DNA of 39,613 nt from Oligoflexales bacterium. Lineage in GTDB: Bacteria; Bdellovibrionota_B; Oligoflexia; Oligoflexales; RGVZ01. Every line of letters begins with the position of its first letter. The stretch's first letter is position 1. A program made the translations under genes and the position numbers. The notes below the pieces were generated by a model that saw only the letters and a program-made list of their open reading frames with translations, made no database searches and was not told where the DNA came from. The DNA lies in assembly GCA_947476525.1 (NCBI GenBank), contig CANJQY010000005.1, forward strand, positions 1 through 39,613. Direction: 5' to 3'. Shown piece after piece: positions 3,884-25,975 of the stretch.

Positions 3884-5545
3884 ATGCCGCATATTTGGTA
3901 TAAGAGCTATGAGTCGACCGTTGCCAAAACAATTGACGCGTCGCGCTATTCGTCGATTAATCAGATATTTGACGAAGCCTTTACCGCTTTTTCATCCTCA
4001 CCGTCGTTTCACTGTATGGGCACGACCATGACATATGGGGAATTGAACGACCGTGCTTTGCGGTTCTGTGCTTTTCTTCAAAATGATTTGAAGTTGGTCA
4101 AAGGCGACCGGATTGCGATCATGATGCCAAATATTTTGCAGTATCCGGTGGCAATGGTTGCCGCATTGAAGGCAGGCCTCGTGATCGTTAGCTGTAATCC
4201 GCTCTATACCGCCAGAGAGTTGGAGCATCAACTTAAGGATTCTGGGGCGAAGGCCATTGTGTTGTTTGAAAACTCGGCAGCTGTGTTGGAAAAAGTTTTA
4301 GCTCAAACTCAAATCAAACATGTGATCACGACTCAGATTGGCGACATGCTAACGTTTCCAAAAAATCACATCGTTAATTTTGTTATCAAAAAAGTTAAAA
4401 AAATGGTTCCAGCCTGGAAGATCCCTGGGGCCATCACAATGTCGGAGGCGATTTGTCGAGGTAATGCCACGCAAGTCGCTGCGCAAACACTGGGGCACGA
4501 AGATCTTGCGTTTTTGCAGTATACCGGTGGGACTACGGGGGTTTCTAAAGGCGCCATGTTGACCCACGGAAACATTGTTTCAAACATGATGCAAGCACGT
4601 GAATGGATTAAAAATATGGTCAGTCCAAAAGGCGACATTATTATTACTCCTTTGCCGCTGTATCACATTTTTTCACTGACTGCGAATTTCCTAACGTTCA
4701 CGTCCCTTGGGGCTCTCAATGTTTTAATCACAAATCCGCGCGACGTAAAAGGGTTTGTAAGCGAGCTCAAAAAATGGAAGTTTACGGCGATCACAGGCGT
4801 CAATAGTCTCTTTAATATGTTACTCAACGACCCAGAATTCAAGAACGTTGATTTTAGCTCACTGCGCCTATCCCTTGGCGGAGGAATGGCGGTGCAAAAG
4901 GCCGTTGCCGAGCGTTGGCAAGAGACGACAAAAGTGGCCTTAATTGAGGCGTACGGATTGACGGAGACCTCGCCGGCGGCCTGTTTAAATCCCATGACAA
5001 ACACCGTTTACTCAGGATTTATAGGCCTGCCCATCTCTTCAACCGAGGTTTCGATTAGGGCTGACGATAATAGCGTTTGCAAAAGCGGCGATATTGGTGA
5101 GATCTGCATTCGGGGACCTCAGGTGATGCTTGGCTATTGGAACCAAGCCCAAGAAACGGCCAACGTCACGACGGAGGATGGTTTCTTTAAATCCGGAGAT
5201 TTAGGTTTCATGAACAGTGAAGGCTACATCAAAATCGTGGATCGAAAAAAGGACATTATTCTAGTTTCCGGATTTAACGTTTATCCGAATGAAGTTGAGG
5301 ATGTGATGATGGGGTGCCCCAAAATGTCGGAATGTGCAGCGGTTGGAGTTGCGGACCCTCATTCTGGTGAGTTAGTGAAGTTGTTTGTGGTTAAAAAAGA
5401 CAAGAGTTTAACGGAAGCTGAGTTGCGAGAATTTGCGAAAGAGAATTTAACCGGCTACAAAACTCCAAAATTTTATGAATTTAGGGATGAGTTGCCGAAA
5501 TCAAACGTAGGAAAAATTCTCCGCAAAGAACTTCGGTCCAAATAG
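3884..5545 (+). CDS. fadD: Long-chain fatty acid-CoA ligase (AMP-forming)
   Basis: An ANL-superfamily adenylate-forming enzyme of 553 residues that activates fatty acids to acyl-CoA through an acyl-AMP intermediate. Visible motifs are the P-loop 'YTGGTTGVSKGAMLTH', the 'YGLTETSP' motif, the 'SGDLGF' Asp that binds ribose, the hinge 'DRKKDIILVSGFNVYPNEVE', and the C-terminal lysine in 'SNVGKILRKELR'. The hinge and the N-terminal 'FDEAFTAFSSSPSFHCMGTTMTYGEL' resemble FadD rather than acetyl-CoA synthetase. The ATG at 3884 follows AGGAG (about 3872-3876). It is probably the last gene of a plus-strand group that converges on the minus-strand hydrolase fusion downstream. Exact chain-length preference cannot be read from sequence. 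Confidence 0.9.
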   Translation: MPHIWYKSYESTVAKTIDASRYSSINQIFDEAFTAFSSSPSFHCMGTTMTYGELNDRALRFCAFLQNDLKLVKGDRIAIMMPNILQYPVAMVAALKAGLVIVSCNPLYTARELEHQLKDSGAKAIVLFENSAAVLEKVLAQTQIKHVITTQIGDMLTFPKNHIVNFVIKKVKKMVPAWKIPGAITMSEAICRGNATQVAAQTLGHEDLAFLQYTGGTTGVSKGAMLTHGNIVSNMMQAREWIKNMVSPKGDIIITPLPLYHIFSLTANFLTFTSLGALNVLITNPRDVKGFVSELKKWKFTAITGVNSLFNMLLNDPEFKNVDFSSLRLSLGGGMAVQKAVAERWQETTKVALIEAYGLTETSPAACLNPMTNTVYSGFIGLPISSTEVSIRADDNSVCKSGDIGEICIRGPQVMLGYWNQAQETANVTTEDGFFKSGDLGFMNSEGYIKIVDRKKDIILVSGFNVYPNEVEDVMMGCPKMSECAAVGVADPHSGELVKLFVVKKDKSLTEAELREFAKENLTGYKTPKFYEFRDELPKSNVGKILRKELRSK

Positions 5546-5584
5546 CCCTGTGCTTTGTCGCAGGTTCAAAAAAGTAAGCTATTG

Positions 5585-5625
5585 GCGCTATGGGGTGCCT
5601 AGGAGCCTGTTAGGCTCGATAGCGG
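5585..5625. terminator. Possible hairpin between convergent genes
   Basis: A nested inverted repeat lies between fadD and the convergent minus-strand gene. CGCTAT (5586-5591) pairs with ATAGCG (5619-5624) and encloses GAGCCT-GTT-AGGCTC (5603-5617). There is no clear T-run, and the inner hairpin lies in the last codons of the minus-strand gene, so a terminator role is only suggested by position. Confidence 0.3.
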
Positions 5626-7182
5626 GGTCATGTCTTCCGAGTCAAGAAGGCGACTGGCCTCGGGATCATCTCTCAAAATTTTGATGACCTCTTTAATTGG
5701 TTCACGGCGGATGATGAATTCGAAATGGCTCAAACCATTCATGGAATAATTGTGAATATTTTTGTGACCACTTTTCGGTACGAAAATACCATTTACGCCA
5801 CGCGAAACGGTGTCATTGACGCTGTAAATCTGATGGATTTGCAGGCTGTCGGGAACGTCACTATCTTTTAGAACCTTCAGAAAACGGCTTCCCGGTCGCA
5901 TCTGCCAAACGTCTCGCCAGAAGAAACCTAAGGGCGTGGCGAGAGCAAGATAGGTGAAATAACTTCCACTGCACGGGGGAGCCATGGCAATCAATTTATT
6001 GCAGTATTTATGACCGCCCAGCTTCAATAACCACCACAAGGCAACCAACGTGCCCTTTGAGTGGGCCACAATATGTACTTTTTTGAAACCGTGGCGATCC
6101 ATTTGCCGTTTAAGTTTGTAGTCAATAAAGTTTGATGTTTCCATGACCCCGTGGGTGAAAAAGGTACCAAAGAGCCCGCCGAGGTTAAAACTCAACACAT
6201 CAAATCCTGCGGTAATAAGTTGCCGCTCGATGACATTGAGAGCTCTTTGCGACGAAAAGAAACCGTAGAGCAGAAGAACAGGTGTTTTTGTGGGGTCAAT
6301 TTTTTGATTGCGGCGAACAATTTGATTGTTCTTGCTAGCTTCCTCCATAATCTCACGGTAGGCGTCATTGAGAGTGGTCCAAAGGCTTCGGCCGCGTTTT
6401 CGGCTTTGCCATTCAAAAATAAATAGGGGAACTAAAATGACAGCTGAAGTCAATCCAACTGCGTTCACAGTTCGGCCATAGAGCGTGATGCTTGGATTGG
6501 AGAGGTAGACCGTCACAATGCACTCGGGCAGAATTCCCAACAAAGTGTAGCCAAATACCCGTCTTGGACTCAGAGTGAAAACTCCCGCGAGAAAACTAAT
6601 GACGTCAAAGGGGAAAATCGGAATTAACCTAGCCGCAAAAATCAATTTATAATCTTGTGTTCGCATGAGTCGTAGGGTTGAAGGAAGATTTCTTCCCATC
6701 CAAGGCACGACAATGCGGCGTCCTACTAAATAACTTAAGCCATAGACCGGAATTGTCGAGAAAGCGCTGCCTAAGGCTGCCAATAGAATAGCGTGACCGG
6801 TGCTAAAATATTTAGCGGCAAGGATTGATGTAAAGACATTTGGAGTCAATAAAATAGGGCGCAAAAAAGACAAGAGCAAGAAATGTGCGGGCGCCAGTTT
6901 GCTGCCTCCGACGCACGTTTCCACACCGTCAGGGCACCAGTTGTGCCAAAAAGTCCAGACGAAGCAGGCCATGCCAACCAGCAAGCCGAGCTCAAATAGA
7001 AATGCTGCTCGAAAGTAATTGAATTTGAAAATTGGCGACGATGGACGTGAAAAAACAGCAGAACTATTTTGCAGAGTCTTTAATTCACAAAACGTTGCCT
7101 CGTCTTTTTTTGGCAAAGCCTCGTCGTCGGCTGGATTTTTATCTCCAGTATTGCCATTCAATTTGTTCGTTTCAAGGTCCAA
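5599..7182 (-). CDS. Fusion of a DedA/TVP38-type (VTT) membrane domain with an alpha/beta hydrolase
   Basis: A 527-residue two-part protein. After a polar N-terminus of about 50 residues, several hydrophobic segments (about 53-270) include the VTT/DedA-like core 'RLIPIFPFDVISFLAGVF' and 'LGSAFSTIPVYGLSYLVGRR'. Such proteins are inner-membrane lipid scramblases or transport-like proteins. From about residue 300 a lipase-like alpha/beta hydrolase follows: 'PVLLLYGFFSSQ' (oxyanion region), nucleophile elbow 'VAHSKGTLVALW' with Ser, a likely acidic residue in 'YSVNDTVSRG', and a late His in 'GLSHFEF'. The start is TTG at 7182 behind GAGGA with short spacing. No in-frame ATG occurs before the first membrane segment, so the exact start is uncertain. 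The gene is divergent from the NlpC-like gene. The two domains point to phospholipid handling at the inner membrane; the substrate is unknown. Confidence 0.8.
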   Translation of the reverse strand: MDLETNKLNGNTGDKNPADDEALPKKDEATFCELKTLQNSSAVFSRPSSPIFKFNYFRAAFLFELGLLVGMACFVWTFWHNWCPDGVETCVGGSKLAPAHFLLLSFLRPILLTPNVFTSILAAKYFSTGHAILLAALGSAFSTIPVYGLSYLVGRRIVVPWMGRNLPSTLRLMRTQDYKLIFAARLIPIFPFDVISFLAGVFTLSPRRVFGYTLLGILPECIVTVYLSNPSITLYGRTVNAVGLTSAVILVPLFIFEWQSRKRGRSLWTTLNDAYREIMEEASKNNQIVRRNQKIDPTKTPVLLLYGFFSSQRALNVIERQLITAGFDVLSFNLGGLFGTFFTHGVMETSNFIDYKLKRQMDRHGFKKVHIVAHSKGTLVALWWLLKLGGHKYCNKLIAMAPPCSGSYFTYLALATPLGFFWRDVWQMRPGSRFLKVLKDSDVPDSLQIHQIYSVNDTVSRGVNGIFVPKSGHKNIHNYSMNGLSHFEFIIRREPIKEVIKILRDDPEASRLLDSEDMTPLSSLTGS

Positions 7183-7317
7183 ATCGTCCTCGCGTTATCA
7201 TGTCGAACTTAGTACCGAAAAAGTCTCTTTAGGGTTCTCGGTGCAACCTCGTTCAATGCAATTTATTCTTTTATTATATCGGAGTGTTGAGCTATAATGT
7301 GAGGAGGAGAATGAAAA

Positions 7318-8016
7318 ATGCACCGATTCGCGTTCAATATATCGAAATTATTACCTTTAATCGGCGTACTTTTTGGGGCGAACGCAGCTGAGAGTTCTGA
7401 TTTATCAATTTACCAAGAAAAAATCAGGGTGGCAGGCATCGATATGCTTGAAAACCTCGAAGTGTCTTATGTATTTGGCGGAGCCAACCTTGGCGATGAC
7501 AAGACGTGTACAGGGTGTAACGAATGTCTCGAAAAATTACAACCAGCGCCAAAGTTACGTTTCAAGCAATGCCCTATATGCGCTCAATGCAGTTTGGATT
7601 GCTCTCACTTTTCGCAAATGGTTTTCGAGCGTGCAGGCCTCACGTTTCCATATATTACGACTTCCGAACTTCTTGAAATGGATCCGGCACTCCTTCAAAA
7701 AAAATATCAGTTAATCTCTCTTGGCACCAATGTGGCGCAAATAATTCCCGGCGATATGTTAGTTTATCGGGGTCATGTGGTCATCGTTGAAGCCATTCAC
7801 GGTATGGATTCTGGCGATATCATTCACGCGACAGGCGGCAAAGATATTCGGGCTCCTGGCCAGGGAATTCAGCGTGAGCGTTTTGTGCGCATGTCGTCTT
7901 TTCGCGGCGATCTGCTCAAGGTGGTTAGGCATTCCAAGCTTGCATTCACTATCGGAACTAACGACGAACCAAAGCCATTCAAAATGCGACGAGTTGAAAA
8001 AAAACAGGCTAAGTAG
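7318..8016 (+). CDS. Secreted NlpC/P60-like cysteine hydrolase with a cysteine-rich insertion
   Basis: A 232-residue protein with an N-terminal signal peptide (about residues 1-25, ending near 'FGANAA'). The body resembles the NlpC/P60 (CHAP-like) fold of peptidoglycan peptidases: 'LEVSYVFGGANLG', the catalytic Cys in 'SLDCSHFSQMVFERAG', the His in 'GDMLVYRGHVVIVEA', and the later 'IIHATGG'. A cysteine-dense insertion between the first strand and the catalytic Cys holds CxxCxxC, then CxxCxxC, then the nucleophile, an arrangement able to bind metal or form disulfides. ATG 7318 follows GGAGGA at 7303-7308. An out-of-frame ATG at 7311 is too close to the ribosome-binding site. It is likely periplasmic and acts on cell-wall peptides. 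Family confidence is good; the substrate and the role of the cysteines are unknown. Confidence 0.75.
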   Translation: MHRFAFNISKLLPLIGVLFGANAAESSDLSIYQEKIRVAGIDMLENLEVSYVFGGANLGDDKTCTGCNECLEKLQPAPKLRFKQCPICAQCSLDCSHFSQMVFERAGLTFPYITTSELLEMDPALLQKKYQLISLGTNVAQIIPGDMLVYRGHVVIVEAIHGMDSGDIIHATGGKDIRAPGQGIQRERFVRMSSFRGDLLKVVRHSKLAFTIGTNDEPKPFKMRRVEKKQAK

Positions 8017-8017
8017 T

Positions 8018-8039
8018 TTTTGGCGCGAAAGTGCCAAAG
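8018..8039. terminator. Hairpin with GAAA tetraloop between convergent genes
   Basis: TTTGGCGC (8019-8026) and GTGCCAAA (8031-8038) form an eight-pair stem with one G-T wobble around a GAAA tetraloop (8027-8030). It sits in the 28-bp gap between the NlpC-like gene and the convergent Hpt gene. A T-run follows on neither strand, so it may be a bidirectional terminator or a 3' end stabiliser. Confidence 0.45.
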
Positions 8040-8044
8040 ATTGA

Positions 8045-8416
8045 TTAAACTGGTGGACAAAGGAGCGCCGCTTCAAGTTCGGCCATGACCTGCGAAACAG
8101 CGGCGCGGATTGCGGTATCATCGCCTAAAGGCCAGGAAATGGTGCCCGATTCGCATTCCGCGTGAAGGGCGTTTAACCGCTCGCATAGTTTTGAAGCTCC
8201 AACGAATCCGATTGTGCCACTAATTTTATGCGCCGCTTTAGATAATTCAACTGGATTTTTCTCGACGATGGCAGCCTTGTATTTTACGAAGCTGGAGTTC
8301 AGGGAATCGAGAGACAGGGTTAAGGATTCGACCCAAAAATTTTTTTTGGCCTCCGCAGTTGCCATTTGCGTACATACGGACTCAATGATTTCAAGATTTA
8401 AAAGTGGTGGACTCAT
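8045..8416 (-). CDS. Stand-alone Hpt (histidine phosphotransfer) protein
   Basis: A small helical protein of 123 residues (127 if a TTG at 8428 is used). It carries an Hpt signature, 'AAHKISGTIGFVGASKLCERL', in which the His would accept a phosphoryl group from a receiver domain, followed by the Gly-rich turn and helix typical of the family. No kinase, receiver or output domain is attached. ATG 8416 was chosen over TTG 8428; neither has a strong Shine-Dalgarno sequence. It is cytoplasmic. Its gene converges on the NlpC-like gene and has no two-component partner next to it. The nearest visible candidate is the hybrid kinase at 30-33 kb, which ends in a receiver domain and lacks an Hpt domain; that pairing is only an inference. 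Confidence 0.75.
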   Translation of the reverse strand: MSPPLLNLEIIESVCTQMATAEAKKNFWVESLTLSLDSLNSSFVKYKAAIVEKNPVELSKAAHKISGTIGFVGASKLCERLNALHAECESGTISWPLGDDTAIRAAVSQVMAELEAALLCPPV

Positions 8417-8582
8417 GCGCAAGCTCAATTTTAGACTAATGATTTCAGGACTTAAAATTTTGGCATTATCCTAGGATAATACCACTAGATATCAATAAAA
8501 CTGAAAAAATTGTTTGGGGAAAGTGTCTGACGCACTTCGTCGACTAAAAAAATGGCATAAGCATGCCCCAAACGTGAATTGC

Positions 8583-8675
8583 AGCCTCCATTTGCCAGAA
8601 GGGGGCCTTCAAACTCTTGCCATGAACCCAATTATTGGGTTACTCTTGCCGACCAAACTCTGGAGGCTCTATCCT
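8583..8675 (+). promoter_or_regulatory. Structured leader/operator region upstream of efp-accB-accC
   Basis: Nested signals occupy the 276-bp gene-free stretch before efp. Outer arms AGCCTCCA (8583-8590) and TGGAGGCT (8661-8668) are inverted. Within them ACTCTTGCC is repeated directly (8613-8621, 8642-8650), flanking the perfect palindrome AACCCAATTATTGGGTT (8625-8641). A short GAAGG-GGG-CCTTC hairpin lies at 8598-8610. A promoter-like TTGCCG (8646-8651), 18 bp, TATCCT (8670-8675) overlaps the second direct repeat, which would put the palindrome just upstream of the -35 box. The repeats are seen directly; operator and promoter roles are inferred. Nothing clear was seen in 8429-8582. Confidence 0.4.
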
Positions 8676-16274: not shown

Positions 16275-18058
16275 TGAATCTTTGGAATCATTTGCAAGAT
16301 ATGTTTGTGAATGCCATGCCCATGATGGGTTGGCTGAATGTGTCTCGCCTGAATTGGTTAATACTTTTTCCGGGCATGGTTATATTATTGTATTTTGCTT
16401 ATTACCGCATCGATCTTCGACTTGGTTTGGCGCAGTCTTCTATCAGCGTTGGGGCTCCTAGATGGACCCTGAGGCGAATCATATCCGGAATTAAAGCTGT
16501 GGTTTTGTGCATGGCTTTGATCAGCCTTATTGTTGCTAGTGCAGGTCCTAGGGTCGGTTGGACGTGGATCGAAAGTCGTCAAAGTGGCATGGATATCGCG
16601 GTCGCCGTCGATGTGTCGAAAAGTATGATGGCCCAAGATCTGGACCCATCTCGACTTGAGCAGGCAAAACGTCTGATCATAGATTTACTGGATGTCTCAG
16701 TTGGTGACCGCATCGGGTTGGTGGTGTTTGCTGGATCTGCGTTTGTTCAGTGCCCGCTAACCGCAGATCATGGTGCCATTAGATCATTTTTGGACCTGTT
16801 AAATACCGACATGATTCCAGTCGGCGGAACCGATATTGCTGGCGCGTTACAAGAATCTCTTCGAGCCTTAGATGCGGGCGGTGAAGAAAAGGGCCAAGGT
16901 AAAATTATTATTTTACTCACTGATGGCGAGGATCACAAAGGTGCCATTGATGCGGCCATGAGTGAAGTTATCAAATCAAAGGCCAAAGTGATTACGGTCG
17001 GAATGGCTTCCGAGTCTGGAGCGCCAATTCCAGACCCGCAAGGCGGATTTCTTAAAGATAAGGGAGGCAATGTCGTCGTGAGCCGCCTTACGGAAACGCC
17101 CCTAAAAATGATCGCCGAGAAGAGTGGAGGGCAGTACATTCGTGCGACTGACGTCGGGGCGTCAGTGTCCAAGCTTTATCAGGATATTATTCGGCAAAAA
17201 GGAACTGTACGCGAGACGCAAGCTAAAAAAGAACGACTTTGGTACGAGAGATTTCAGTGGCCCGCAGCCGCGGCCTTTATTTTGCTGGTGCTTGAATTAT
17301 TTTTGTTCGATGTGGGTTTAACCACAGCAGGTTCCCTGGCCGTGTTGCTTGGAATTTTGTGTGTCCCCACGCCATTAAAAGCTAGTGCCGCAGATAATGA
17401 CCGTTACAATCAGGCACTCGAAACTTTTTTCGCCGGTGAGGCCGAGAAGGCAAAAGGAGAATTCGAAGACTTGGCGAAATCAGCTTCAGGTGACGTTCAG
17501 CAGAGGTCCCTTTATAACCTCGGAAACATCATGGGGGCTGCTGGTCAGTTCGACGAGGCCGTAAAATTTTATGAGGCAGCCCTTGCGCTAAACAGTCAAG
17601 ATCAGCAGGTTCGCGACAACCTTGAGTGGGCAAAGAAAAAATCCGACGCCAAGAAAGACAAGGATAAAAAAGATAAAAAAGACAAAAAAGACGATAAGGA
17701 AGATGATAAAAAAGACGACAAGGATAAAAAACCGGGAGATAAGTCTGACGACAAAAAAGACGACAAAGATAAGAAGTCTGACGACAAAAAAGACGACAAA
17801 GATAAGAAGCCTGACGACAAAAAAGACGACAAAGATAAGAAGCCTGACGACAAAAAAGATGGCAAAAAAGACGACGGTGAAAAGAAATCTGACGATCCCG
17901 CTGAAAATAAGGCAGCCGAACAGGCCAAGCAGCAGCCTCCGATGACTCCGGAAGAGGCCGAGAAACTCCTGAGAACTGCTACTGACGACAGAAAATCGTT
18001 TGTGCCGATTAGTCGGCAAGGTAAATCATCACCAACCGCCGTCAAGGAAGACTGGTAA
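16274..18058 (+). CDS. batB: BatB vWA protein fused to TPR (BatC-like) domain with a Lys/Asp repeat tail
   Basis: A 594-residue fusion. The N-terminal part is a BatB-like membrane vWA protein: two hydrophobic helices (about 20-38 and 72-90), MIDAS 'AVDVSKSMMAQDL' with Asp113, and 'ILLTDGEDHKG'. After a further hydrophobic region (about 325-365) come TPR-like repeats ('YNQALETFFAGEAEKAKGEFEDL' and 'QFDEAVKFYEAALALNSQDQQV'), as in BatC. The tail (about 450-550) is almost wholly Lys and Asp, including a 33-bp tandem repeat. ATG 16274 overlaps the batA stop (TGATG) and has CGGAGGG upstream; ATG 16238 is a less likely longer start. In Bacteroides and Leptospira BatB and BatC are separate proteins, and here they are joined. 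Confidence 0.9.
   Translation: MNLWNHLQDMFVNAMPMMGWLNVSRLNWLILFPGMVILLYFAYYRIDLRLGLAQSSISVGAPRWTLRRIISGIKAVVLCMALISLIVASAGPRVGWTWIESRQSGMDIAVAVDVSKSMMAQDLDPSRLEQAKRLIIDLLDVSVGDRIGLVVFAGSAFVQCPLTADHGAIRSFLDLLNTDMIPVGGTDIAGALQESLRALDAGGEEKGQGKIIILLTDGEDHKGAIDAAMSEVIKSKAKVITVGMASESGAPIPDPQGGFLKDKGGNVVVSRLTETPLKMIAEKSGGQYIRATDVGASVSKLYQDIIRQKGTVRETQAKKERLWYERFQWPAAAAFILLVLELFLFDVGLTTAGSLAVLLGILCVPTPLKASAADNDRYNQALETFFAGEAEKAKGEFEDLAKSASGDVQQRSLYNLGNIMGAAGQFDEAVKFYEAALALNSQDQQVRDNLEWAKKKSDAKKDKDKKDKKDKKDDKEDDKKDDKDKKPGDKSDDKKDDKDKKSDDKKDDKDKKPDDKKDDKDKKPDDKKDGKKDDGEKKSDDPAENKAAEQAKQQPPMTPEEAEKLLRTATDDRKSFVPISRQGKSSPTAVKEDW
17741..17872 (+). repeat. 33-bp tandem repeat, four units, in the batB Lys/Asp tail
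   Basis: Four consecutive 33-bp units (starting 17741, 17774, 17807 and 17840) encode 11-residue repeats of the form K-S/P-DDKKDDKDK. Units 1 and 2 are identical, unit 3 changes Ser to Pro, and unit 4 is degenerate at its end. The near identity at DNA level indicates recent expansion or slippage. Confidence 0.9.
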
Positions 18059-18103: not shown

Positions 18104-19945
18104 ATGGAAGTTAATATTCGCAAAGTTAATATTCGCAAAAAAATAGCTCTGATTTTACTTGTGGCTCTGCTTACAGCTGGCAGTAAACTCGCTATTGCAG
18201 GCACCATGACGGCCGAAATTGACCGCGTGCAGTCTACTCTTAACGAACCTTTCAATATGAATGTCAGCGTCCAAGGCTCCCTTGACGGCGAAGTCATCGA
18301 GCCTGAATCCAAAGATTTTGAATTTATAAGAACCGGCACATCCACCAACATTTCAATGATTAACGGCACAGTCACCAAGGAACGGCAGTATTCTTATCAG
18401 GTGCGAGCCCTCAAGGAAGGACATTTGACCATTCCGTCGCTTAAAGCGAAAGTTGATAACGAAGTCCTGCAAACAGTTCCGATTCAAGTGGACGTTAAGG
18501 GCGGCGTCGCAGAACCTACTCCGGACGAGGTTGGCGCTAACAAAAAGTTAATTTTTGTTGAGAGAGAACTACCTAAAAAAACGATGTATCAAGGAGAAGT
18601 CATTATCTCCAAGGTCCGATTACTACATAGAGCACGCTTTACCGGTGTGACTCCCAGCCGTGATGCCGCCCCCGATTGGCGGTTGATTGGCACTGAGGGC
18701 CAGCAAAATCGTGAGGAGGTTCGTGACGGTGCTAGGTGGAACGTCATAGAGATGAGCGAGGGTTTGATTCCACTAAAGGCCGGTAAATTAAAAGCTCCAT
18801 CATTTGGAGTTAGTGCCACGTGGATTCAGCCGTCTACTAATCGGCAGCGTAGCCCACAAAATATTTTTGACATGCTGCGCAATGGCAATTTAAGCATGGG
18901 TGAGGAGGTCAGTAAAAAACTTTTTTCCGCCCAAATTTCTGTTGACGTAAAGCCGTTACCGAATCCAAAGCCAGCTGAATTCGCCGATATTGTGGGAGCC
19001 TTTACTCTGACGTCAAACATTTCAAAACGGAAGATTGGTACCGGTGAAACAGCAACGGTGACTCTAGAAATAAAAGGCCAAGGTGCCCTAGACCATATGA
19101 GGGACGTGAACTTGACCATTGCCGGTGCAAGAGTTTATGCAGATAAACCGGTGTTGACTGAAAAAATTGAAGCTGGCGCAGGACTTGTTTCCACCAAGAT
19201 TTTAAAATATGCGATAGTTCCCAATGCGCAAGGTTTGGTCGAGCTAGGGACTGTGAAATTAGCCAGTTTTAATACGTTCACCGAAACCTATGACACCATG
19301 ACTGCAAATCTCGGTTCGTTGGAGGTGGGTGTTCCAAGCTTGACGCCAACAGGCACTGCAGTGGTGGCTTCAAATCCTAACGCTCCAGCAGAGGCTTCGG
19401 CGGCGAGTAGTGGTTCCAATCCAGTTGCTAATCCAGCCGTGGTTCCCCCGTCACCAGACGCTCCACTTTCTCCTAGACTCATTACCGACGAGCCTGATAG
19501 CGCACGGCCGTGGTTTTTGGGGCCGGTAGCCCTGGCCGTTGAAGTGCTACTCGTCGCAGGATTACTTGGCGGCCTAATTTTGCGCCGAGGATTGCGTCGC
19601 CTAAAATCCTCAGCCCCGCTCGTCAAGAAGAAGTCGGCAAAACAATGGCAAGGATTAATTGCGGAATTGGCGCACGGGGACCGACTAGTGTTTGACCGGG
19701 CTGTGATGCAGCTAAAAGAAATTCTATCGGCCAATTCCCAAGATCCATTGGCGATGACGTCACGAGATTTAATTCAAAGTGCAGAGTCCATGAAGTTTGA
19801 TCCCTTACACGTGGAGGCGCTGGGTCGTTTGCTGAAGGTGTTGGACAGGCTTGCCTATAGTGGAAATCCCGATCAACCGACAGAGGCATCCTCTGTTGCG
19901 GATTTGACCGCACTGTTGATTTATTGCCAGTCGCGAGGTGTGTAA
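18104..19945 (+). CDS. batD: BatD-type protein with periplasmic beta domains
   Basis: A 613-residue BatD-like protein. An N-terminal signal segment (about 12-32) is followed by a long periplasmic beta-rich region starting 'AEIDRVQSTLNEPFNMNVSV', the usual BatD opening, with the family's 'YSYQVRALKEGHLTIPSLKA' and 'PKKTMYQGEVIISKVRL'. A Pro/Ala/Ser-rich linker (about 415-465) leads to one transmembrane helix (about 470-490) and a cytoplasmic helical tail. ATG 18104 has AAGGAAGG and AAAGGGAA upstream. The first codons contain an exact 15-bp duplication (VNIRK-VNIRK). The gap from batB is 45 bp and the stop overlaps the batE start (TAATG). Confidence 0.88.
   Translation: MEVNIRKVNIRKKIALILLVALLTAGSKLAIAGTMTAEIDRVQSTLNEPFNMNVSVQGSLDGEVIEPESKDFEFIRTGTSTNISMINGTVTKERQYSYQVRALKEGHLTIPSLKAKVDNEVLQTVPIQVDVKGGVAEPTPDEVGANKKLIFVERELPKKTMYQGEVIISKVRLLHRARFTGVTPSRDAAPDWRLIGTEGQQNREEVRDGARWNVIEMSEGLIPLKAGKLKAPSFGVSATWIQPSTNRQRSPQNIFDMLRNGNLSMGEEVSKKLFSAQISVDVKPLPNPKPAEFADIVGAFTLTSNISKRKIGTGETATVTLEIKGQGALDHMRDVNLTIAGARVYADKPVLTEKIEAGAGLVSTKILKYAIVPNAQGLVELGTVKLASFNTFTETYDTMTANLGSLEVGVPSLTPTGTAVVASNPNAPAEASAASSGSNPVANPAVVPPSPDAPLSPRLITDEPDSARPWFLGPVALAVEVLLVAGLLGGLILRRGLRRLKSSAPLVKKKSAKQWQGLIAELAHGDRLVFDRAVMQLKEILSANSQDPLAMTSRDLIQSAESMKFDPLHVEALGRLLKVLDRLAYSGNPDQPTEASSVADLTALLIYCQSRGV
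18110..18139 (+). repeat. 15-bp tandem duplication at the batD N-terminus
   Basis: GTTAATATTCGCAAA occurs twice in a row (18110-18124, 18125-18139), duplicating five codons (VNIRK) in the basic n-region of the signal segment. The reading frame is preserved. Confidence 0.95.
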
Positions 19946-20682
19946 TGCTGCCTCGTGATTTTACGGAGACGTTTAATGCGGCGGTGACGTCGGCCGATTG
20001 GCCGCTCGTCATAATATTAGGAGAATCCGCTGTTGCTGAGCAGAGTGCCTCGGTAGCAATGGTCTATAACTTAGGACTTGCCTACCTAAAAACGGGAAAT
20101 GCGCCACTGGCGGTGTCGGTTTTTTTAAGTGTTCCCGCCAACAAACAAGATGCAAGTTTTCGCTTTGCGATGGCTGAAAGTTTGCGCATGGCAGGAGCCT
20201 CAGCCGATGACCTAGAGCTTGGCGCCCATGGGTTTTATGGAGCCATGACAAATGTTGCGCGAACGATTTCGCGGGTAGATCCATATAGTTGGTGTGTTTC
20301 GGCGCTTGGTCTTGCAATTATATTGGGAATCACTTTGGTTTTTGGTCATAAAAAAATGGCAACGCCGCGCGTTCGTTCAGCCGTTGTGTTTTCTTTGATT
20401 TTTTCTCTTTCCTTAACCGCCATTGCTGGAGTTGGGATCGGAATAGAATATTTTTATCAGTGCCATTGGGGGGCGATCGTCAGTAAGGATCTTGCGTCGA
20501 TTCGGCCAACTCCGAGCGAGGATAGTGAGACGTCAAAAAGCCTAAAACCAGGCAATCCTGTGCTTGTTCTCGGTGACGTGACGACCCCATGGGTCCGCGT
20601 TATCGAAGCCGATGGGGGGGATGGTTGGATGAATGCGCGCGACCTTCGGGTTGTTACCATTTCAAAGTCTACTGACAGGTGA
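19945..20682 (+). CDS. batE: BatE-like protein: TPR region, two membrane helices and an SH3-like domain
   Basis: A 245-residue protein closing the Bat operon. The N-terminal part has TPR-like helices ('YNLGLAYLKTGNAPLAVSVFLS'), two transmembrane helices follow (about 115-135 and 145-168), and the C-terminal 70 residues read as a bacterial SH3-like domain ('GAIVSKDLASIRPTP...GDGWMNARDLRVV'). This order matches BatE proteins. ATG 19945 overlaps the batD stop by one base and has GAGG upstream. The longer ORF from TTG 19924 would lie inside batD. Its last 67 bp (20616-20682) are duplicated at 24370-24436 beyond the large surface-protein gene, so the 3' end of the operon is a rearrangement junction. 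Confidence 0.85.
   Translation: MLPRDFTETFNAAVTSADWPLVIILGESAVAEQSASVAMVYNLGLAYLKTGNAPLAVSVFLSVPANKQDASFRFAMAESLRMAGASADDLELGAHGFYGAMTNVARTISRVDPYSWCVSALGLAIILGITLVFGHKKMATPRVRSAVVFSLIFSLSLTAIAGVGIGIEYFYQCHWGAIVSKDLASIRPTPSEDSETSKSLKPGNPVLVLGDVTTPWVRVIEADGGDGWMNARDLRVVTISKSTDR
20616..20682 (+). repeat. Left copy of the 67-bp batE-tail direct repeat
   Basis: This is the intact batE 3' end. It matches 24370-24436 at 66 of 67 positions (difference at 20639/24393). Similarity continues weakly to about 20691. The repeat starts in a poly-G run and includes the batE stop codon. Confidence 0.95.
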
Positions 20683-20688
20683 CTGGAT

Positions 20689-20771
20689 CTAATGCGCTGG
20701 TATGGAAAGCATATTAAAGTAAATATCTTGAATATTTGTTTTCATAAAAACATGATTCTTAAATCCTCCAA
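20689..20771 (-). pseudogene. Probable scar of a lipoprotein gene (start and end retained)
   Basis: Read on the minus strand, a Shine-Dalgarno sequence (GGAGG, about 20764-20768) precedes ATG at 20745 and codons MKTNIQDIYF. These resemble the start MKTKMQNFYIF of the intact lipoprotein gene at 24423-25109; 27 bp including the ATG align at 21 positions. Only 18 codons later the frame ends at TAG 20689-20691. In another frame, minus-strand bases around 20667-20697 read SALDPVTCQ-stop, much like the lipoprotein end GVIDPFTCQ-stop. The simplest reading is a paralogue reduced by internal deletion. The 3' end resemblance is partly explained by the shared batE-tail repeat, so confidence is moderate. 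Confidence 0.45.
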
Positions 20772-21112
20772 CTTAAATTCAAATATTGAAACGTCTTCAT
20801 AGGCTCGTCGGAGAAAAATTTTACCAAAAATAAAAGCATATATAATATTCTCTCTTGATGTGGTTTCGATAGCGAGGCGTGCTGACTAGAGATGGATATA
20901 TTGCATATATATATGTGTAATATGTAATAATTTCAGCGTTAAATTTTAGGATGATGAGCCTACGAACTATCGCATGACGAGCGCTCGCTATGAAAAAAAT
21001 TTGCCTAGAATATTTGACGGAGGATATTTTTTCACTTCATAATGTTTATTGACGGCGGAGTTGTCTTTCGTTTTTTTTGAAACATTGTAGTTTAAATTTT
21101 CCGGGAGGAAAT
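20772..21112. other. AT-rich gene-free region upstream of the large surface-protein gene
   Basis: This stretch is strikingly AT-rich compared with the genes on both sides. It contains a TATAAT (20841-20846), an alternating AT palindrome around 20904-20915, and an inverted 8-bp pair ATAGCGAG (20869-20876) and CTCGCTAT (20984-20991). No ORF with a ribosome-binding site was seen. It probably contains the promoter of the large downstream gene, but no promoter pair was convincing. Confidence 0.4.
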
Positions 21113-24100
21113 ATGTTGATAAATAAATTGATTGGAGCAAGTTTAATCGGGGCCCTAATTGGTGTGGGGGTCTTTTCGACCTGTAAAACGCCGGGTACAA
21201 CCAGTGGTTCCCGCGCTAAATCCGGCGGTCGCGTGGCCGATGAATCTTCGAGCGCCTACACCGGGCCGGAGTCCGCATTTTCACTAGTCGGTGATCCTAT
21301 GAAGGGCGTAGGCCCCGCGGATCCTTATCATGGTTTCCCTCGCTGGTATGAGGATGCTACCGGCGCGCGCGTTGAGCTCTGCTATGAGGCCGACCCGAAG
21401 TGCATCATTCCGCCATTTGATGCCACATTGCCTTTCCGGTTTCCGGAAAACTTCCCCGATGAGTCGTTTTACTGGACAGCGAACAATATTCTGGCCATCT
21501 CCACCGGTGGTACAATTCGCGCTGAATTCGCGATAGAGGCGGCGTTTGTGCTTGGAGCAGCGATGCCCGGTCAGCGCATTACGTTCGGCAGAACAAGATT
21601 TACCGCTAGAGGTCTTGCAAACGGAACCTACCGCATTACCCATCCTTATGGGGTTGATGAGTTTGACGTCATTGACGGCACAATTAAGTACACCATGGAT
21701 ATCGGTGTTGGTCAGGAAGTATTCACGGGAGTTTTCAAAGCTCCATTTGGAACCCTGCTGAGCTGGGATGTCGGCGCGCCCGCGGGATATCTCGGTGACA
21801 CGTTGGTGCCGCATTTATTCAAGGGCAGCCCCTACGGAACGAATTTTTTTAAAGTCGAGGCGCTCGCGGGCAACACAGCAACAGTCGTTTCTCAGACTAA
21901 TCTCGCCAATATCGGTGGACGTCTGCTCAAAAATGACGTGGCGGTGAGCCAGCCTGCCGTCCAGCCAGGGATCGCGAATTCAGGAATTTACACCACGCCG
22001 CCGACCGTTAAAATGGTCGGTCCGACCACGGGCTCTGTCGTGCATTATACAACCAACGGCTCCACGCCGACACTCAGCAGCGCATCATATACCGCTCCGG
22101 TTTCGTTGCCATTACCGCTCCCCGGATCCTCTGATGTAACTCTGAAAACAGTGGCTGACCTTGGCGGCGGTGTTCTCGGTCCGGTTAAAGCTTACACATA
22201 CTCGATCAACAGCAATCTAATGTCGGTAAATGCGACACCGGCGCCCAACAGCTACCCCGACCCGATTTCTGTGACGTTAACCCGTGAGGGACCATGCACA
22301 CAAATCTGGTACACCACTGATGGTCTTGATCCCCGCACCAGCACAACAAAAACAGTCTATACCGGACCGATCGCATTGCCGGACAATGGACTGACTACAA
22401 TTAATTATGCGTGTGTCTTGCCGGGAACGGCACCACTGCAGTCATCAGTTATGAGGACCGCGTATTACTCTATTGGCATGCAAAAATTCACTCGCTCCGA
22501 GGTTGATCCGTCCATTGAGATGCCGTTCAGCGCGACCGATGAGGCCGGTAACTCCGTAACGACTTGCTGGGATCCGGCGGATCTTATGTGTCTGGCCCCC
22601 GGCGCTGAAGTGGATTTAACCCGTCAGGTAGTATGGCCACGGAACTATCCGACTGAGACATTTTTGTGGAACGCGACCAACCTGACCGCGTCACCCGCGG
22701 GAAAGGCCCTGCTCGTGCTCGCGATTGAGGGTGCTTACCTTTCACCAACTGTCGTACCAGGCACCAGAATTTTATTTGGCCGGATTCGTATGAGAGTCGA
22801 CGTCGGCGTCGCGGGTCATTACCGCGTCACTCATCCTTATGGCGTTAATCATTTTGACGTGGCGACCACCGGTATTAAAGCCATCAACTACAGCGAGGAT
22901 ATCGCCCCGTCCGAGGGTAATTTCGATCTGTTCCGTTTTGGCCGAATTGGACCTTTGCTAACCTGGAATGCCGGAGCTCCCGCAGGTTATCTCGGAGACC
23001 CCGCGATTCCTCACGCCGTGACCGGAAGCCCCTTCAATACGAACTATTTCCTGGTTGAGTATCTGAATCCGGCGACAGGGCTTTATCAGCAATACCTCAA
23101 ATCAAGCCTGTTTACGGTAGCGGCCAAAAAAGCGCCGGCACTTGACGTGTCCGCAGCCCCTATGGGCGGATTTTACTCCAATGACCGAACGGTCACACTG
23201 ACCGCGTCCAATACTGCCGCGAAGATTTACTACACCCTAGATGGATCCATTCCAACAACGGCCTCGACTCAATTCACTGCCGACTTATTCATCACTGGGA
23301 CAACAACCGTGAAATACTTCGCGCAGCTGGCCGGTGGCGCAACGTCCGAAATTAAAACAGCCAGTTATACCCTAGATAAATCGCCGTTAACGTTGGTCGT
23401 CTCGCCAGCGGGAGGAACGTTTCTAAACACCGCTGTCGGAACATCTGTAGCGCTGACCGCCTCAAGAGCCAGTCGCATCTTCTATACGGTTGACGGCACA
23501 TCGCCGCTGTCATCAGCGACCAGAGTCCGCTATGCGGTGCCGTTTATTCTGAGAGGTCCCGCGTCTGTGGTTCTCAGGTCCGTCGCCATTGACGATGCCA
23601 ATTTCGCGTCTGCCGAGAATACTAACACGTTTAATTTCACACAGATTCTTCCCACGGTCACGGCTCCGGTCGGCCGGATGGTCGCGGGGGCAGCGGTTAC
23701 CGCGACGCGCATCCCAAGGACCTTTTCTTGGACAGGATCAACCATCGCAGGGCAATCTATTGCGAAATACGTCCTCGAGCGCAGCCTCAATAACGGAGCC
23801 TTTGCAAATATTGTGTTACCAGCACTGACAGCGACCAGCGTCTCGTCACCGGTCACTCCGGGCGGTACCTACGTCTACCGTGTCCGCGCGACTGACAACC
23901 AAGCTCCGGCTCAAACATCCCTGAACGGGACTGCTCCGTCGTTTCAGGCAATCTTGGCGCAAGAAAACGCCGCGGTGGTCAAATATCAAGGTTCTTGGGC
24001 ACGCGAGACCAACGCGACTTATATCGGCGGCGCGGCTCGCGCTTGCGCGGTTGTGGGCCCTAGAGCCACGTACTCCGCTGTCAACCGCAGCCAACTGGCC

Positions 24101-24328
24101 TTAGTCGCGCAGACTGGTCCAAACAGGGGATTTGCAAATATCAGCATTGATGGCGGACCCGCGATCCCGGTAGACCTTTACTCGGCAACACGCAGTGGGT
24201 CCAAATTTGTATATGTGACCACGCTAATGCCGAGGGGAACACATACGATGGTGATCACGGCCCGAGGGACGAGAAACGCGGCATCCACAGGAACATCGAT
24301 CGATATCGACGCTGTGTCGTCCTTTTAG
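21113..24328 (+). CDS. Large secreted surface protein with chitobiase-C-terminal-like repeats; probably acquired
   Basis: A 1071-residue exported protein. The N-terminal hydrophobic segment ends at Cys24 ('GVGVFSTCKT'), which may be lipidated, though the lipobox is not canonical. The order is: domain A copy 1 (about 74-250), two chitobiase/beta-hexosaminidase C-terminal-like modules (about 283-365, 369-452), domain A copy 2 (about 463-650), two more such modules (about 676-752, 756-840), a fibronectin III-like domain (about 845-940), and a C-terminal beta domain (about 955-1071). Both A copies share 'RITHPYG/RVTHPYG', 'GAPAGYLGD' and 'GSP-NTNYF'-like strings. The modules show 'YYTLDGSIPT'. 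No catalytic site was seen; it is probably adhesive or carbohydrate-binding. ATG 21113 follows GGGAGG. The gene is more G+C-rich than its surroundings and is bracketed by the batE-tail repeats, which suggests acquisition. Confidence 0.8.
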   Translation: MLINKLIGASLIGALIGVGVFSTCKTPGTTSGSRAKSGGRVADESSSAYTGPESAFSLVGDPMKGVGPADPYHGFPRWYEDATGARVELCYEADPKCIIPPFDATLPFRFPENFPDESFYWTANNILAISTGGTIRAEFAIEAAFVLGAAMPGQRITFGRTRFTARGLANGTYRITHPYGVDEFDVIDGTIKYTMDIGVGQEVFTGVFKAPFGTLLSWDVGAPAGYLGDTLVPHLFKGSPYGTNFFKVEALAGNTATVVSQTNLANIGGRLLKNDVAVSQPAVQPGIANSGIYTTPPTVKMVGPTTGSVVHYTTNGSTPTLSSASYTAPVSLPLPLPGSSDVTLKTVADLGGGVLGPVKAYTYSINSNLMSVNATPAPNSYPDPISVTLTREGPCTQIWYTTDGLDPRTSTTKTVYTGPIALPDNGLTTINYACVLPGTAPLQSSVMRTAYYSIGMQKFTRSEVDPSIEMPFSATDEAGNSVTTCWDPADLMCLAPGAEVDLTRQVVWPRNYPTETFLWNATNLTASPAGKALLVLAIEGAYLSPTVVPGTRILFGRIRMRVDVGVAGHYRVTHPYGVNHFDVATTGIKAINYSEDIAPSEGNFDLFRFGRIGPLLTWNAGAPAGYLGDPAIPHAVTGSPFNTNYFLVEYLNPATGLYQQYLKSSLFTVAAKKAPALDVSAAPMGGFYSNDRTVTLTASNTAAKIYYTLDGSIPTTASTQFTADLFITGTTTVKYFAQLAGGATSEIKTASYTLDKSPLTLVVSPAGGTFLNTAVGTSVALTASRASRIFYTVDGTSPLSSATRVRYAVPFILRGPASVVLRSVAIDDANFASAENTNTFNFTQILPTVTAPVGRMVAGAAVTATRIPRTFSWTGSTIAGQSIAKYVLERSLNNGAFANIVLPALTATSVSSPVTPGGTYVYRVRATDNQAPAQTSLNGTAPSFQAILAQENAAVVKYQGSWARETNATYIGGAARACAVVGPRATYSAVNRSQLALVAQTGPNRGFANISIDGGPAIPVDLYSATRSGSKFVYVTTLMPRGTHTMVITARGTRNAASTGTSIDIDAVSSF

Positions 24329-24369
24329 ACTGTTAGCAGCCGCCTAAAAACTACAGTATTTGACCTACA

Positions 24370-24436
24370 GGGGGATGGTTGGATGAATGCGCACGACCTT
24401 CGGGTTGTTACCATTTCAAAGTCTACTGACAGGTGA
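24370..24436 (+). pseudogene. Right copy of the direct repeat: orphan batE 3' fragment
   Basis: A 67-bp fragment identical to the batE end except for one base, still readable as the last residues GDGWMNAHDLRVV...TDR and the stop. It has no upstream batE sequence. On the minus strand its end supplies the last codons and stop (TAG 24423-24425) of the lipoprotein gene. Confidence 0.9.
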
Positions 24437-25109
24437 AGGGATCTATTACGCCCGATGTAGATAGTTTAATGGAATCTAATGCGCCACCGGCGTCACCAAG
24501 TTTTTTATCGGCTAGGGTGTAGGTCCCTTGACCTTCCGACGTGGCCGTAGCTGGAGTGCCGGTAGCTGGAGTGCCGGTAGCTGGAGTGCCGGTAGCTGGA
24601 GTGCCGGTAGCTGGAGTGCCGGTAGCTGGAGTAGCGGTAGATGGCACGAACGTTTTCTTAATGAGGTAGACATAGAGTTCGGCCTTGTCGCCCTTTGCGC
24701 ATTGGTTTATTTCATAGCCGCCAGCAATCCATGCATCGACCGATTCAATGGCAGGTTTGCCGTTTAACGATTTACTAGCGAGAGATTGCGCAACGCTGTC
24801 TCGGGTACAGGTGGCTTCCTTCTTTAATGGGGCACCTGCGCAAGATTTACTTGAGAACGAGTAAATGCCTTCGCATGCAAGCACAGCTGGCGCTTTGGTG
24901 ACTCTATCCCAGCATGGGGTGGCCGTAGGAGTGATGGGTAATTTATCGTCCGGAGTGCCAGTCGCATCTTTTCCAGTCCCAGTTTTCGCAGGCCTAGACC
25001 TAGGGGCTGATGGCTCTTCTTCCGGTGCCGAGGAGCATGAACTGATAAAGTTTATGGCTATAAGCGCCACAAAGATGTAGAAATTCTGCATTTTTGTTTT
25101 CATAAACAT
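24423..25109 (-). CDS. Lipoprotein with Thr/Pro/Ala/Gly tandem repeats
   Basis: A 228-residue predicted lipoprotein: basic start, hydrophobic segment, and lipobox 'FISSC' with Cys25 as the lipidation site, followed by a Glu/Pro/Ser-rich linker. The middle (about 60-155) has four cysteines in a compact pattern ('TPCWDRV', 'VLACEGIYSF', 'KSCAGA', 'ATCTRDS') suggesting disulfides. A run of five-residue repeats (TPATG) follows, and the tail ends in 'DPFTCQ'. No family was recognised. ATG 25109 has AAAGGGAA upstream. The final codons overlap, in antisense, the duplicated batE tail, so the current 3' end is the same sequence as the repeat. It is probably outer-membrane or periplasmic. Confidence 0.75.
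   Translation of the reverse strand: MFMKTKMQNFYIFVALIAINFISSCSSAPEEEPSAPRSRPAKTGTGKDATGTPDDKLPITPTATPCWDRVTKAPAVLACEGIYSFSSKSCAGAPLKKEATCTRDSVAQSLASKSLNGKPAIESVDAWIAGGYEINQCAKGDKAELYVYLIKKTFVPSTATPATGTPATGTPATGTPATGTPATGTPATATSEGQGTYTLADKKLGDAGGALDSIKLSTSGVIDPFTCQ
24547..24636 (-). repeat. 15-bp tandem repeat, six units, in the lipoprotein gene
   Basis: GTAGCTGGAGTGCCG (plus strand) is repeated from 24547 with units starting every 15 bp up to 24622. The first five units are identical and the sixth differs near its end. The repeat encodes a flexible TPATG linker on the minus strand and is a likely site of slippage length variation. Confidence 0.95.
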
Positions 25110-25315
25110 TTATTTCCCTTTGCAATAATAACGCCCTAGCGGTTTACAATATCTTTGACCTAAAACCCGTTGTAAAGCATTTCGGATATTCTGGCAAAAA
25201 CTTAAGAGATTCTTTTAAGTTACTAGATATATTGAGCTGTTTTTAAGCCTTTGAGCGCGACTTAGAAGCCTTGTTTTAACTTAGAAGGTCCTAAGACTGT
25301 AGCAACCTAATAATA
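25110..25315. other. Divergent intergenic region between the lipoprotein gene and darP
   Basis: About 206 AT-rich bases. AACTTAA (25199-25205) and TTAAGTT (25215-25221) form a hairpin. The string ACTTAGAAG occurs twice (25260-25268, 25279-25287), and AACTTAAGAG at 25199 is similar. These could be binding sites, but no promoter pair is convincing. Confidence 0.3.
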
Positions 25316-25975
25316 ATGATGGAATATTCTAATAAATACGTGTATAGAACGGTTGTCATGAAGCCACATAATATCGAGAACGGTAAAATGTCTATCCTAA
25401 GTCTTGAACCATCCCTAAAAACTCCCGCGCAACAGGCCCCCGCCTTGCAAGGATTTTTAGCGGGCAAGTCGACTGACGGATCTGAAGTATCTGAAGCCGA
25501 TCAACCATCTAAATCAGAGCTTAAACGTCGGCAAAATCGCCTTCAAGACCTCGGACGGCTTCTCGTTGAACTTACGCCAGGTAAAATGGCTCGTATTGAA
25601 CTTCCCGAAAAATTGCGGGCCCACGTGGTCGAGGCCCAACGTCTTACCGCCATGGGCGCACTTCGTAGGCAGATCCAGTATATTGGAAGAATCATGGAGG
25701 AGTTTGATACGCCTGCCATTGCTCGTGCGCTGCGAGATATTGATCAAATTCCGTACATTAAGCCTGTGGTCATAAAATCAGCCCGTGTCCTGGCTGCTGA
25801 GGAGTTGATTGAGGGTGGGGACGAAGCCCTGTTTTCAAAGTACTCAGGTCGCGTCGACAATGCCGATATGCAGAGGCTACGCCAAGCGGTGCGCCTAGCG
25901 CAGAAAAACATTGCATCAGGAAAAGGTGCAGCTCACGAGGCGGTTGTGTTAGCTTCTAAACTCAAGAATTGCTAA
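25316..25975 (+). CDS. darP: DarP/YjgA (UPF0307, DUF615) ribosome-associated protein
   Basis: The family acts in late assembly of the large ribosomal subunit. The core here (from about residue 65) has the YjgA pattern: 'SKSELKRRQNRLQDLGRLLVEL', 'IELPEKLRAHVVEAQRLTAMGALRRQIQYIGRIM', and a helical C-terminus. The ORF gives 219 residues, longer than the roughly 180 of the E. coli protein, because of extra N-terminal sequence. No start has a strong ribosome-binding site: ATG 25316, 25319, 25358 and 25388 are all possible, and ATG 25388 would give a more typical length. It is cytoplasmic and lies 35 bp before nadE. Confidence 0.8.
   Translation: MMEYSNKYVYRTVVMKPHNIENGKMSILSLEPSLKTPAQQAPALQGFLAGKSTDGSEVSEADQPSKSELKRRQNRLQDLGRLLVELTPGKMARIELPEKLRAHVVEAQRLTAMGALRRQIQYIGRIMEEFDTPAIARALRDIDQIPYIKPVVIKSARVLAAEELIEGGDEALFSKYSGRVDNADMQRLRQAVRLAQKNIASGKGAAHEAVVLASKLKNC

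Follow-up and report, generated by a model that had tools for sequence, protein, structure and literature searches.

How can a single large gene come to lie between two copies of its neighbour's tail when no recombinase accompanies it? We asked this for a locus in the window, i.e. the whole stretch of 39,613 nucleotides analysed here, from an Oligoflexales genome (G000). The features needed to follow the argument are listed in the order of their positions; the large gene is called CHX.

19945-20682, plus strand: batE-like gene (TPR/SH3), last of the bat operon, intact (ORF; SH3/TPR matches; orthologs in G001-G004)
20616-20697, plus strand: left repeat copy, 67 bp of batE tail and 15 bp of lipoprotein tail (repeat search, alignments)
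20683-20753, minus strand: remnant of a second lipoprotein gene, tail ALDPVTCQ with stop and head MKTNIQDIY, middle deleted (repeat search, alignments)
20754-21112, plus strand: AT-rich leader with ribosome-binding-like GGGAGGAAAT ahead of the ATG (sequence)
21113-24328, plus strand: CHX, 1071-aa lipoprotein-like protein with CHB_HEX_C_1/Fn3_assoc domains (ORF, domain search, homologs)
24329-24369, no strand: spacer of 41 bp from the CHX stop to the right repeat (sequence, alignment)
24370-24451, plus strand: right repeat copy, orphan batE tail followed by the intact lipoprotein tail (repeat search, alignments)
24423-25109, minus strand: intact lipoprotein gene (ORF; ortholog beside darP in G002)
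25316-25975, plus strand: darP-like gene, conserved right flank (profile matches, comparison with relatives)

The repeat search of the window confirmed the observation of the first-pass annotation that the 67-bp tail of batE (20616-20682) recurs with one mismatch at 24370-24436, 3754 bp away, and delimited a direct repeat of 82 bp at 94% (20616-20697 versus 24370-24451). Up to the batE stop codon the copies agree in 66/67 bp and in the next 15 bp in 11/15, so that the length of 67 bp given before holds as far as the stop codon, but weaker similarity continues for 15 bp into the lipoprotein tail; a gapped alignment added no further length to the match. The self-match is far past chance (BLAST E = 2e-29), and a search of the whole genome returned these two copies only. 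In the right copy the batE stop falls within the end of the intact lipoprotein gene and, because both tails sit in this copy, batE and the lipoprotein gene were ancestrally arranged tail to tail. The insert is flanked on both sides by a direct repeat of target DNA, with one copy sharply truncated at the joint: 24369/24370, at the end of the spacer, is a sharp illegitimate junction.

Alignment of the remnants on both sides bore out the proposed reciprocal pattern, i.e. complete batE plus a lipoprotein scar on the left, and a batE scar plus the complete lipoprotein gene on the right, where the intact lipoprotein gene and then darP come after the 67-bp batE orphan. The left lipoprotein remnant bears deletions and frameshifts. 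Its head (20719-20753, minus strand) reads MKTNIQDIY, compared with MKTKMQNFY in the intact lipoprotein gene; this match beyond the repeat falls on the lipoprotein start codon and was equalled by 5 of 2000 dinucleotide shuffles, this stricter shuffle test alone being significant, whereas a permissive gapped alignment of the left flank with the lipoprotein region stayed within its null. No RNA families were found in 20500-25400.

The protein encoded by the insert matches the chitobiase/beta-hexosaminidase C-terminal domain (PF13290) with 136.5 bits, compared with a curated cut-off of 22, and its signal peptide ends in FSTC, which we read as a lipoprotein signal. The GC3 of CHX (0.57) is the highest among the long genes of the window and within the top 2% of 415 ORFs of the genome, in agreement with the earlier description of a large enclosed gene richer in G+C. 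A search for similarity to the leader (20754-21112) elsewhere in the genome and in the fetched loci found none, a promoter scan gave no signal above shuffles, and no solved structures matching CHX were found. A structure prediction reached a mean pLDDT of 28.5 with two sequences and was left out of use.

Full or near-full homologs of CHX are sporadic in the order (G009, 67%; G005, about 50%; G016, G023 and G038). In both G005 and G009 CHX is the first gene of a cluster that also encodes an SCO1-cytochrome c protein and a multicopper oxidase, and in G009 a MauG-type peroxidase follows these two. Proteins partly like CHX have like neighbours elsewhere: in a Nitrospirae bin they sit by MauG and the same cluster gene, in Skermanella by genes for multicopper oxidase and SCO, and in Arthrobacter by genes for multicopper oxidase. 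Of the 56 relatives that were searched, all those in which the CHX homolog exceeds the shared repeat domain also have the long multicopper oxidase; in G002, the closest relative of G000, the oxidase is present without CHX. Judged from these gene neighbourhoods and this co-occurrence, CHX probably serves a secreted module of multicopper oxidase, SCO1 and MauG-type peroxidase as an accessory lipoprotein. G000 differs from G005 and G009 in that CHX lies apart from its partners: SCO1 and the multicopper oxidase are on contig C89, where CHX is absent.

Comparison of the batE-lipoprotein locus in related genomes, which are metagenome assemblies or drafts, showed that both flanks of the window are collinear with G002. 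There batE is followed by an unrelated gene, the lipoprotein gene and darP, so that G002 presents the site without CHX and without the repeat, although another gene fills the interval. This gene (L047 11086-11913) encodes a different secreted protein with a paralog elsewhere at 59%, and the spot has therefore taken more than one gene. In G001 and G003 the batE-darP interval is filled by a different gene block, hence the interval is variable across the genus. The absence of CHX and repeat from G002 and the variable interval support the earlier suggestion that a gene was gained between reciprocal remnants.

The gene trees are discordant. In the CHX tree G000 and G009 were joined with 100/100 support and a grouping of G000 with G005 was rejected (AU p 1e-14), whereas in the SCO1 tree G000 and G002 group with G005 and the CHX-like grouping was rejected (p 0.023); the multicopper oxidase tree decided neither grouping. 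The closest tree partner of CHX, G009, belongs to another genus, against the SCO1 grouping. The designation of the gene as foreign thus stands insofar as CHX groups with another genus, but not for the module as a whole, the other genes of which are present in G000. The simplest reading of the sequences is that CHX would have been gained by horizontal transfer and then inserted here.

A second entry was found in G009, a MAG filed as Pseudobacteriovorax antillogorgiicola, where a direct repeat of 203 bp at 92% encloses the CHX homolog (L048 684-886 and 4309-4511). This repeat is made of the SCO1 upstream region/promoter and 5' end, unlike the batE-tail target of the window, and as target and repeat differ the two insertions are separate. 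Through the repeat, CHX has moreover acquired a duplicate of the SCO1 upstream region. Flanking repeats were sought around the CHX homologs of G005 and G016 and none was found, which weighs against the route favoured below; the homolog of G023 is cut by a contig end.

A survey covering about 0.86 Mb of the 2.74 Mb of G000 revealed further repeat-bracketed units, the clearest of which is at ssb (L091 14448-19425). Here a five-ORF insert (two oxygenase-like ORFs, MATE, GNAT and a 174-aa ORF) lies between HD-GYP and ssb, bracketed by repeats of 141 bp at 97% and 46 bp at 100% that comprise the ssb 3' part and the HD-GYP tail; both repeat ends are cut sharply by the cargo. In G002 (L167) HD-GYP directly adjoins ssb, which represents the empty site. 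At L180 (135-2730) an S9-peptidase lipoprotein gene lies beside a methyltransferase gene with a 66-bp copy of the latter on its far side; the sequence beside the methyltransferase gene is different in G002, and the left context of L180 is hidden by a contig end. The survey candidates L179 and L208 were left aside. No motif common to the inner ends of the bracketed units emerged from a search for one. Searches of other genomes gave no unit of this kind in 0.42 Mb of G001, one small candidate case in 0.44 Mb of G002 and, in 0.40 Mb of G047, repeats that were mostly tandem or paralogous and a single displaced tail (L164).

Of the routes by which CHX may have entered, we favour a circularised fragment and a single crossover, to which we give a substantial probability that falls somewhat short of an even chance. 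A linear fragment from a relative would bring in CHX together with a short stretch of homology to the target; after joining of its ends, the resulting circle would recombine with the chromosome by one RecA-type crossover within this homology. Such entry would be additive, the target stretch being duplicated and nothing replaced. The product would read target copy, cargo, target copy, with one copy on the intact host gene and the other sharply truncated at the ligation joint, and the redundant copies would then decay by internal deletion. Donor, circularisation and crossover are what we infer; the repeats, the remnants, the absence from G002, the discordant trees and the recurrence are observed. 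A single crossover predicts that the cargo-side repeat copy is of donor origin, and in both insertions divergence within the repeat is mosaic (1/67 versus 4/15 mismatches in the window, p 0.003; 2/123 versus 14/80 in G009, p 6e-5), the pattern to be expected were one copy derived from a diverged donor allele. The mosaic of the window rests on few bases, for which remnant decay alone may suffice, and conversion of one copy by the other after insertion is a further possible source of such mosaics. The position of the G009 insertion is explained by a single crossover because a donor with the CHX-SCO1 order of G005 gives exactly the observed arrangement. At ssb, in turn, a single crossover would need two unrelated ligated fragments since both repeat edges are sharp.

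The competing route that comes closest, although we consider it fairly unlikely, is a staggered break or a switch of replication template. Here a long stagger would open the target, or a fork would switch template and return upstream, and once a foreign fragment was in, both overhangs would be filled, leaving the target duplicated over a variable length. Repeat lengths vary widely (66-203 bp and more), where a transposase would leave a fixed length, and the inner ends share no motif; both agree with this route, and at ssb, with both edges sharp, it is simpler than a single crossover. It leaves unexplained, however, why near-identical and diverged blocks occur within one repeat and why the insertion in G009 lies beside SCO1, the usual partner of CHX. 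Less likely still is that the target was tandemly duplicated first, CHX was then gained between the copies by any route, and one gene decayed in each copy. One intact and one ruined gene per copy is what it would leave, tandem duplications are common (L189 in G000, set aside in the survey, looks like such a remnant of native genes), and merodiploids can arise in transformation (PMC3784515); yet it needs two events, twice for the same family in the window and G009 and again at ssb. The first-pass annotation had offered tandem duplication plus gain, or integration that copied its target. The gain stands, and entry by single crossover is favoured but not proven.

Transposition and site-specific integration are disfavoured because repeat length is variable, the targets are unrelated, the ends are unshared and no recombinase was recognised. 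As noted before, the ORF survey between the repeats recognised no transposase or integrase; the ORF list showed no integron integrase either, and no integrase was recognised between or beside the repeats that would accompany one att copy. Neither a recognised transposase ORF nor a shared end motif, as conserved terminal inverted repeats would give, points to an insertion sequence, and instead of a short target duplication of fixed length we found 67-82 bp in the window and 203 bp in G009. Integrative elements typically show direct repeats of a gene's 3' end, and the batE tail might accordingly be an attachment site used by an element whose integrase was lost or acts in trans; the intact gene is indeed preserved. 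This reading is strongly disfavoured and very improbable: apart from the missing integrase, the CHX unit of G009 has an unrelated target and repeat (SCO1 promoter region versus batE tail), so that the independent insertions share no attachment sequence, the units have no common end motif, no phage record matches CHX, and plasmid matches are partial, covering less than 40% of the query. Equally remote is an assembly artefact from mixed strains in the metagenome. Although the genome is a draft (176 contigs, 88% complete), an ordinary read is longer than the 67-bp repeat, point changes distinguish the copies, deletions and frameshifts mark the left remnant, the flanks on either side are collinear with G002, and the same anatomy recurs in the independent assembly of G009.

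Entry by circularisation and single crossover has a laboratory counterpart. When linearised non-replicative plasmid DNA was introduced into E. coli, 56/60 aberrant integrants gave a duplication product, and the 14 that were sequenced carried duplications of 109-950 bp, which were explained by degradation, recircularisation and single crossover (PMC3240628). Both cases share a partial target duplication of variable length with one copy truncated and no recombinase of its own, but the E. coli case is a laboratory plasmid (PMC3240628), whereas here the cargo is a natural gene, the insertion is old enough for decay and the family was hit twice. Homology-facilitated illegitimate recombination, proposed for the T6SS effector arrays of Vibrio cholerae (PMC5361080), likewise combines one homologous with one illegitimate end and leaves a displaced remnant by the new gene; in its classical form it deletes or displaces the target, which here is duplicated and kept. 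In Streptococcus pneumoniae transformation DNA uptake also yields tandem copies of host DNA, but these merodiploids extend over about 100-900 kb and depend on a repeat that already exists, unlike the window (PMC3784515). The locus resembles single-crossover and homology-facilitated illegitimate recombination but departs from them in that the target is duplicated and kept, the cargo is a natural gene and one family was hit on two occasions.

For most single-gene gains in bacteria the entry route cannot be traced. In the present case a single gene family has entered twice independently, each time without a recombinase and flanked by a long copy of the respective target, and G000 holds at least one further example, at ssb, with an empty site in G002. 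If this holds up, it provides a signature in the sequence from which additive gene gain without a recombinase may be recognised and dated in ordinary genomes, and what is known mainly from laboratory crosses becomes testable in nature. More speculatively, and with only a slight probability, the lineage might recurrently gain secreted-protein genes with long copied target ends in this recombinase-free way, and the units might excise as circles and re-enter empty sites of relatives via the same repeat, acting as minimal mobile cassettes.

Several other repeats came up alongside these units. At L092 and L108, which were set aside, the repeats hold terminator-like hairpins, and L089 was set aside as the cargo gene's own tail lies in the repeat; there (4202-8674) a 171-bp repeat contains the tail of a 1245-aa DUF285 lipoprotein gene together with the first part of a short ORF that lies downstream. 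In G047 a 532-bp displaced 3' copy of a 2426-aa giant gene (L164 13390-13921 and 15826-16357) encloses a 251-aa gene, resembling the displaced tails of giant polymorphic genes. In the window, a lysine/aspartate-rich repeat tract is present in the bat VWA/TPR protein (17600-17940), and the intact lipoprotein gene contains 15-bp tandem repeats in about seven copies (24541-24660; GTPAT), where strain-to-strain length change is possible. L181 and L191 were set aside as bracketed units as they share a dispersed repeat, GCGAAAATCGTACAATGTGTGTTGCTACTACA, which flanks ATPase genes in G000 (L181 152-196 and 2032-2075; L191 16938-16995 and 18386-18443) and is possibly a small mobile or regulatory repeat.
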